From: Xanthobacteraceae bacterium
Lineage (GTDB): Bacteria > Pseudomonadota > Alphaproteobacteria > Rhizobiales > Xanthobacteraceae
DNA: 64,000 nucleotides
Assembly (NCBI GenBank): GCA_030037645.1
Contig: JASHQI010000034.1
Span: 1 to 64,000, forward strand
Reading direction: 5' to 3'
Below, one piece after another: positions 61,796-64,000 of the stretch; the stretch's first letter is position 1; the number at the start of each line of letters is the position of its first letter. A program made the position numbers and the translations under genes. The notes under the pieces are model-generated. The model was not told where the DNA came from, searched no databases, and saw only the letters and a program-made list of their open reading frames with translations.

Positions 61796-62467
61796 TCACT
61801 TCACCGGAAAATTGAAGTAAGTGCCCGGAAACGGCTCGCCCCGCAACGTGAAGTGCCACCATTCCCGGTCATAACCGCGAAAGCCGCGTCGGCGCATCGC
61901 CGCAGTCAGCAACATGCGGTTGGCATGGGCCGTGGCGGACACCTTCGGGCTGGCGGTCCAAGATTTCGGGCTGAAGAAGTCGAAATGAGTGCCCATGTCG
62001 AGCTCGGTGCCGTCGGCCTGCGCCAGCGTCAGATCGAGCGTCGAGCCGCGGGAATGGCCGGAATACGAGGCGATATAGCCGTCGCGGAACAAGGCACGCT
62101 TGTCGACATCTGGATAGAACTCGGCTTTACCGGCAGTGTCATTAAGGTTGCGCGCCCAGCGTACGAAATTAGCCACTGCGCGTGTCGGGCGATAGCAGTC
62201 GAACACCTTGATATGCAGGCCGCGCTGAGCAAGATCGCGCGCCACGGCGGCAAGCGCATTGGCCGCCGCCCGCGTCAGCAAGCAGTGCGGTGCCTCATAG
62301 CCATCGATCGACCGGCCGACGAAATTATGCGAGCCGGCATAGCGCATCTCGACGATTAGCCCCGGCACGACCGTTGCAGCATCGACGAATGCGGCAGGCC
62401 GCTCTTGCGCCAGCGCAGCAGTTGTGCCGCACACAACCATCAGCGCAAGGAAAAGTCTCGGCATCAT
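61796..62467 (-). CDS. Secreted D-alanyl-D-alanine dipeptidase (M15, VanX/DdpX-like)
   Basis: Signal peptide; IKVFDCYRPTRAVANFVRWA; YSGHSRGSTLDLTL; REWWHFTL. Confidence 0.9.
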   Translation of the reverse strand: MMPRLFLALMVVCGTTAALAQERPAAFVDAATVVPGLIVEMRYAGSHNFVGRSIDGYEAPHCLLTRAAANALAAVARDLAQRGLHIKVFDCYRPTRAVANFVRWARNLNDTAGKAEFYPDVDKRALFRDGYIASYSGHSRGSTLDLTLAQADGTELDMGTHFDFFSPKSWTASPKVSATAHANRMLLTAAMRRRGFRGYDREWWHFTLRGEPFPGTYFNFPVK

Positions 62468-62515: not shown

Positions 62516-63535
62516 TCACCGTCGCCAAACATTGGCGCAAGCGATCCGCAGTTTCTCCACATCGGCTTCCCGGCAGTCCGAATAGTTGATCATTTTCATA
62601 TAGGTCGGCAATGCCGCGGTTCGCAGATAGATCGGGAACAGGACGTTTGCATCGCTTTCTCTTGCGCGGAATAGCGCGATGTTAAACTCCTCCTTGCACA
62701 CCTTGGATTCCAGATAGTCGGGCGAGATCAAAGGTATGATCCGCGCCGAGGCATCAAGTACGTCATAGATCGCCTGCTGCCACGACTCTCCGGGATTGAG
62801 CGCCAGCTCGTCAACAAAGATCCGAGCGTGTCCGTTGTCTTGACGAAGCACGTTCGCGACAAAGCGCGCGTGCTCGCGATCCTTCCGCGAATAGCTGATG
62901 AATGCGTCGTAGCGGATGGCCGACTGCGATGCCAATAGATCGCGGTGCGTCTGAAACTCGGAACCGCCGAAGACATTACGCAATCTTTCGACTTTATCGG
63001 GCATGCATTCGACGATCTTGAGACACTTCAGTGGCAAACCTTGCGAAAGCCAATGCACCGCGGCTCGCAATATTTGCAGCAGCATATCCTCGCCCTGCCA
63101 ATTCTGCTCGCCGCTTGCAACAATCGGCATAGCGACCGTCGCCTCCGGATATTCGCCGAGGAGAAACGGGGCGAGGCAGCGGAAGATATCGCCGACGACT
63201 TCCGGAGGCTTGCCGCGAACCGCAGGCTCAAAGCACAAAATGCGCTTGAATCTGATGTCCGCGGACACGTCCGTCAGATCCGACGACAGCCAGCACGAGA
63301 ATGTACTACGCAGATCGAACCGCTTGCTCTTCGCAAGTTCGGCGACCGAGATGCCGTTGCGGTGCAGCGCGCCGACCAATGATGCAGGAGTTGGATCATA
63401 GGAATCCGGGAATGCGGAGACGATGAGAATGTCGATCTGTTCGGATTGTTGCAAGTGAGCGAGATCGCCCCGGCAAAGCTCAATTCGACGCTTCTTGTCG
63501 CCATGCAGCACAGTAAGGTTGTCGATCACTTCCAT
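62516..63535 (-). CDS. Macro-like domain plus C-terminal TIR domain protein
   Basis: C-term TIR: YDAFISYSRKDREHARFVANVLRQDNGHARIFVDELALNPGESWQQAIYDVLDASARIIPLISPDYLESKVCKEEFNIAL; N-term RIELCRGDLAHL...VAMPIVASGEQNWQGEDMLLQILRAAVHWL resembles a macro fold; start could be 63535, 63571 or 63685. Confidence 0.85.
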   Translation of the reverse strand: MEVIDNLTVLHGDKKRRIELCRGDLAHLQQSEQIDILIVSAFPDSYDPTPASLVGALHRNGISVAELAKSKRFDLRSTFSCWLSSDLTDVSADIRFKRILCFEPAVRGKPPEVVGDIFRCLAPFLLGEYPEATVAMPIVASGEQNWQGEDMLLQILRAAVHWLSQGLPLKCLKIVECMPDKVERLRNVFGGSEFQTHRDLLASQSAIRYDAFISYSRKDREHARFVANVLRQDNGHARIFVDELALNPGESWQQAIYDVLDASARIIPLISPDYLESKVCKEEFNIALFRARESDANVLFPIYLRTAALPTYMKMINYSDCREADVEKLRIACANVWRR

Positions 63536-63783
63536 GGTTCGAGACCCCAGCCCGCCGACACGGCTTTCCGTCATCAAACAACAGTGCACCGGCGCAGTAC
63601 GCTCTGCAAGAGTGCGAACGCGCAATAAGCTATTGCTATCGCGCTTCGACCCGGACACAATTGCCATGCTGGGTGGCGAAGACATTCCAATTTTTCAGCC
63701 TGTTGTTCGGGGGGCCGACCGATGATTGCTTCCGCGTCAATATTGCTGTCGATCGACGGCGATTCAAAACCGCCTCGGTAACC

Positions 63784-64000
63784 ATGCTGACCACGCAGCA
63801 GTGGCAAAACTTGGCAGCCAGCATCCGTGCCGGCGCCTGCACGCCGTTTCTCGGCGCCGGCGCCTGCGCTCCGACGCTGCCGACGGGTACCGAGCTGGCG
63901 CGCATGCTTGCCCGCGATTTTGATTATCCGCTGGACAACAGCACCGATCTTGCGCACGTCACGCAATTCCTCGCCATCAAGTCGCGCGACAGCATTCATC
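63784..64000 (+). CDS. SIR2 family (SIR2_2-like) protein, 3' truncated by window end
   Basis: Translated by hand: MLTTQQWQNLAASIRAGACTPFLGAGACAPTLPTGTELARMLARDFDYPLDNSTDLAHVTQFLAIKSRDSIH; FLGAGAC...LPTGTELA matches the SIR2_2 N-terminal nucleotide-binding motif; not in the ORF track because it lacks a stop. Confidence 0.75.
   Translation, partial: MLTTQQWQNLAASIRAGACTPFLGAGACAPTLPTGTELARMLARDFDYPLDNSTDLAHVTQFLAIKSRDSIH

Follow-up and report, generated by a model that had tools for sequence, protein, structure and literature searches.

A macro-TIR gene and a SIR2-nSTAND1-patatin operon occupy one accessory site in a Xanthobacteraceae genome

At the right end of the window (the 64,000-bp stretch of DNA analysed, C325:1-64000) a gene for a TIR protein lies head-to-head with a SIR2-family gene. 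Do the two genes form one NAD-linked antiphage system, as a preliminary description of the sequence had proposed, or are they two separate modules side by side? The contig, which belongs to a 4.57-Mb assembly of 336 contigs, continues to position 75832, and the stretch 60000-75832 (L009) was used for completing the SIR2 gene and for identifying its downstream neighbours (Table 1). The likely start of the TIR gene was placed at residue 51 of the open frame, because alignments with homologs begin there. With this start the spacing of the two genes, estimated earlier at about 250 bp, is 248 bp. A promoter scan of this intergenic region gave no sigma-70-type match, a null result that carries little weight. 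The flanks of the locus include flagellar and transporter genes, and there is no obvious defence island.

Table 1. Features of the divergent locus. Positions are those of the contig, which coincide with window positions up to 64000.
Feature	Position	Strand	Evidence or remark
Macro-TIR protein, 339 aa	62516..63535	-	Pfam TIR_2 E=1e-20; homologs align from residue 1
TIR ORF, maximal open frame	62516-63685	-	ORF extends upstream of the likely start at 63535
Divergent macro domain, residues 1-200, without Pfam model	62936..63535	-	PDB profile matches; AlphaFold model
TIR domain, residues 209-324 (about)	62564..62911	-	Pfam TIR_2; structure matches
Putative catalytic Glu283 codon	62687-62689	-	Invariant in family alignment
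Divergent intergenic region common to both genes, 248 bp	63536..63783	.	Between likely starts
SIR2_2 protein, 327 aa	63784..64000, continuing to contig 64767	+	Pfam SIR2_2 E=5e-21
nSTAND1 NTPase, 849 aa	contig 64770-67319, beyond window	+	Pfam nSTAND1 E=9e-31
Patatin-like phospholipase, 332 aa	contig 67316-68314, beyond window	+	Pfam Patatin E=4e-12

The TIR_2 match scored 74.9 bits (curated Pfam cut-off 28), and the TIR part of the AlphaFold model matched TIR domains including that of the NADase AbTir (TMt 0.80, rmsd 2.4 Å). The glutamate to which the preliminary description had drawn attention is present: the segment SKVCKEEF contains two, and the second, Glu283, is invariant in eight family members. 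Because TLR2 also carries Glu at this position, Glu283 fits an NADase activity without being proof of it. The nearest solved TIR sequences were domains of Toll receptors and MyD88, with Cat1 and AbTIR lower in the ranking. The whole genome contains nine TIR_2 matches; in a single-sequence search a macro domain was detectable only in the one described here.

A Pfam search with the first 200 residues of the TIR protein gave no family match. This segment is strongly conserved across Cyanobacteria, Methylococcales, Chloroflexota, Planctomycetota and Bacteroidota, and the earlier suggestion that it is macro-like was borne out by profile and structure comparison alike. In a profile search of solved structures all significant matches were macro-domain proteins, among them PARP14 (E=1e-6) and AF1521 (E=2e-4). 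The AlphaFold model (mean pLDDT 78, built from seven sequences) consists of two alpha/beta domains with no added membrane part, and Foldseek aligned its N-terminal part with macro domains at TMt values up to about 0.7. In the profile alignment the conserved AMPLVASGxQG stretch is paired with the AF1521 loop AFPAVSAGIYG, and a GDL motif is paired, weakly, with GDIT of AF1521. Where macro domains have the canonical NAAN/GGG ligand loop, no NAAN motif was recognised; VSAFP stands there, in a weakly aligned region, and loop 42-49 of the domain was modelled with low confidence. Since the usual Asn-rich loop appears to be missing, binding of an ADP-ribose-type ligand is uncertain. Judged from the VSAFP replacement, the domain may possibly bind a ligand without performing the usual hydrolysis.

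Extension of the contig confirmed that the right-hand gene encodes a SIR2 protein. It heads an operon in which it is followed by genes for an nSTAND1 NTPase and a patatin lipase, so that the immediate partner of SIR2, located outside the window, is nSTAND1 rather than the TIR gene. The SIR2 protein retains the LGAGA (23), TTNYDD (108) and YHMHGN (160) motifs, and ThsA-like SIR2 chains were matched in the PDB. The nSTAND1 match scored 108 bits (cut-off 27.1), with Walker A SGAGKSS at residue 49. The NTPase also contains roughly five hydrophobic segments and a region with weak similarity to HEAT repeats, and its hydropathy peaks lie in the C-terminus. The patatin start codon (ATG) overlaps the nSTAND1 stop codon by 4 bp; a search for the patatin in 90 other genomes of the same family gave no match at E<=1e-20.

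Relatives of the SIR2 and STAND proteins were followed up from plasmid-collection records, which yielded four comparison loci from three phyla: Ensifer adhaerens pB, two sites in Nonomuraea gerenzanensis and Haliscomenobacter pHALHY02. SIR2 was followed by nSTAND1 in all four. The C-terminal parts differed (PQQ/BamB-like, TPR, or WD40 in the next gene), as expected by analogy with STAND sensors. No patatin, macro-TIR or any other TIR gene was found within about 8 kb of these loci, the Haliscomenobacter stretch ending at the start of its record. In Nonomuraea each SIR2-nSTAND1 pair (L022, L023) is head-to-head with an NB-ARC/TPR gene of the FxSxx-COOH system, and L023 continues with an FxsB radical SAM gene. 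Apart from the source genome itself, SIR2 relatives were found in none of 397 genomes of the order (E<=1e-10), none of 349 genomes of the phylum (E<=1e-20) and no viral contigs; sampling of the operon is therefore narrow.

A same-genus genome (G1659, L122) carries the M15 dipeptidase, DUF3617 and flhA genes in order, and lacks the TIR, SIR2, STAND and patatin genes. The place of the four-gene block, between the M15 dipeptidase gene and flhA, is taken by a cation-efflux-like (metal transporter) gene (L122:5794-6798). As all four genes are missing together, they occupy one variable accessory site. The comparison comprises one genome, and both a single insertion and repeated insertions at a hot spot fit it. 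In the window an M15 D-Ala-D-Ala dipeptidase gene (61796-62467) of the same orientation begins 48 bp past the end of the TIR gene; it probably lies outside the accessory block, because the same-genus genome has it too.

Homologs of the macro domain were gathered from one scan of genome contigs and from searches of genomes with a profile of the N-domain. The gene is patchily distributed: it was found in 3 of 199 genomes of the window's order and 5 of 291 cyanobacterial genomes, and in the other groups in 1/179, 2/121, 3/180 and 2/180 (the seed genome is counted in each figure). No macro-TIR relatives were detected in the phage collection, the plasmid collection or viral contigs. Seventeen other macro-domain loci from at least five phyla were examined, two of which are short contigs. 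The domain fused to the macro domain varies, being either TIR or DUF4145. In G523, G1276 and G1588 DUF4145 takes the place of TIR behind the macro domain; the Pfam match was above the cut-off in two of the three and just below it in the third. A planctomycete locus contains tandem copies. The G1345 genome, found in the Planctomycetota search, has two adjacent macro-domain genes, one of which resembles the G523 protein over its full length. The literature that we searched, which leaves out most subscription papers, contained no description of a macro-TIR fusion.

In G1588 (L056) the macro-DUF4145 gene stands directly behind a gene for the ADP-ribosyltransferase DarT, which ends 4 bp upstream; this arrangement supports an ADP-ribose-related role of the macro domain. 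The row (L056:4467-9170) consists of a CARF/sigma-54 RtcR-like regulator, a 232-aa protein without known family, DarT and macro-DUF4145, and it is possible that it represents a DarT/DarG-like module with a new form of antitoxin. DarT was rejected as a constant partner, since it occurs at one locus only. The same applies to a Crenothrix gene with which the macro-TIR ORF overlaps by 8 bp (L012:2371-5140); its 582-aa product has the sequence GVTGHRD in its initial part and matches DUF4231 below threshold. Genes for ADP-ribosylglycohydrolase were found near family members in L036 and L044, in the former (L036:8899-11847) together with an NrtR-type NUDIX regulator gene beside macro-TIR. In a Methylococcaceae bin a DUF4062-NACHT-WD40 gene is located upstream of the macro-domain gene; a recent report describes DUF4062 as a family of TIR-like NADases (PMC13174449).

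If the TIR and SIR2 genes were parts of one composite system, the macro-TIR protein would make, or its macro domain would clear, an ADPR-type signal controlling SIR2, STAND and patatin, a Thoeris-like relay with the STAND protein in the middle. The divergent arrangement around a common 248-bp region, the absence of both modules from the same site in the same-genus genome and the NAD chemistry predicted for both are consistent with such a system, and Thoeris provides a precedent for TIR-to-SIR2 signalling (PMC11204291). However, a SIR2/STAND profile scan of the flanks of the 17 macro-domain loci gave no match, all matches coming from the locus in the window and the four comparison loci with SIR2-nSTAND1; none of these four has a macro-TIR or other TIR gene within about 8 kb, one of them being cut by the end of its record. 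Moreover, the SIR2 protein lacks a SLOG-type sensor for a nucleotide signal. We consider the composite system unlikely. SIR2-nSTAND1 recurs without macro-TIR and the macro-domain loci recur without this SIR2 or STAND; at the present sampling, therefore, the two are not a conserved pair, an outcome that the preliminary description itself had named as counting against its proposal. What speaks for a linkage is that the four genes are jointly present here and jointly absent from the same-genus genome; pairing elsewhere was not observed. Still less probable is the compound reading in which macro-TIR is an undescribed immune family, its macro domain gating in cis a TIR NADase or, in sister architectures, an output by DUF4145, and in addition makes up here one composite NAD-depleting system with SIR2-nSTAND1-patatin.

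The neighbourhoods of the macro-domain genes might also point to a role outside the phage context. Macro-TIR could be a self-limiting or guard protein answering ADP-ribosylation damage, comparable to the DarT/DarG toxin-antitoxin system, with a macro domain that senses or erases the modification and with TIR or DUF4145 as output. The position of DarT in L056 and the ADP-ribosylglycohydrolase genes in L036 and L044 favour this, but DarT was seen once among the loci examined, beside the DUF4145 rather than the TIR form, and the family gene in L044 is a remnant. This role, too, appears doubtful. That the TIR domain is a non-enzymatic adaptor, or the gene decayed and functionless, would agree with the similarity to animal receptor and adaptor domains and with the truncated or remnant family members (L041, L044). 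We regard this as very improbable: the 339-aa frame is open, the protein is 33-48% identical to homologs from distant phyla, Glu283 is invariant and the macro core is strongly conserved.

The reading that we favour, by a modest preponderance, is that the accessory block unites two neighbours: a split, Avs5-like SIR2-nSTAND1-patatin module and an independent, laterally spread macro-TIR gene. Both modules are probably immune; NADase activity, sensing, gating and an antiphage role are what we infer for them. The nSTAND1 protein would sense an invasion signal through its C-terminal HEAT/membrane part, oligomerise and activate the separate SIR2 subunit, which would then destroy NAD+; patatin, if part of the system, might be a second effector that attacks membrane lipids. 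In the macro-TIR protein the predicted activity of the TIR domain is to cleave NAD+ or to cyclise it. The macro domain may bind an ADP-ribose-type molecule, either the product of its own TIR domain or an ADP-ribosylated target, and in the ligand-bound state may gate the TIR domain.

The locus shares features with several known systems. It resembles type I Thoeris (TIR ThsB and SIR2-SLOG ThsA) in the adjacency of TIR and SIR2 genes and in its ThsA-like SIR2 domain. Nevertheless, the SIR2 protein is too short (327 aa) and contains SIR2_2 only, without SLOG; the best ThsB model matched the TIR part alone with 25.8 bits, and NCBIfam ThcB4 scored 27.7 bits where the cut-off is 220. It further differs from type I in the STAND partner, the macro domain on the TIR protein and the non-conserved pairing. 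Type II Thoeris (TIR ThsB and TM-macro ThsA) likewise makes use of TIR and macro domains, and its ThsA macro domain binds ADPR (PMC11204291). A separate TM-macro effector is absent here, the macro domain being N-terminal to TIR in one protein. Thus the locus, with TIR, SIR2 and macro domains all present and both NADase-type active-site motifs intact, falls outside canonical Thoeris, as had been proposed. Should the macro domain bind ADPR-type products, macro-TIR would be a one-protein switch that controls NAD cleavage by feedback or as a sensor, a simpler version of the type II TIR/macro relay. The DarT/DarG likeness lies in the family member directly behind DarT, which is however of the DUF4145 form, and the window has no DarT. 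That TIR and DUF4145 replace each other behind one and the same macro domain makes it possible to test directly whether the macro domain is the common sensor.

The nSTAND1/effector-associated conflict systems (Kaur et al. 2021, PMC8195603) likewise combine an nSTAND1 NTPase with an NAD-targeting effector. EAD11 is present in the SIR2 relative from Haliscomenobacter, whereas no EAD was detected in the SIR2 or STAND protein described here, and patatin is an additional component. In Avs5 a STAND NTPase drives a SIR2 NADase output, and immunity requires N110 and D112 of the Sir2 domain (PMC12931631); the catalytic Asn/Asp motif is retained here. Avs5 is a single Sir2-STAND polypeptide, whereas SIR2 and nSTAND1 are encoded by two genes in this operon; its NTPase belongs to the nSTAND1 clade and has a HEAT/membrane-like C-terminal part, and the operon goes on with a patatin gene. 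By analogy, SIR2-nSTAND1 would work like a split Avs5, though it is not an Avs5 member, and the operon would add to Avs5-like immunity a split version with swappable C-terminal parts.
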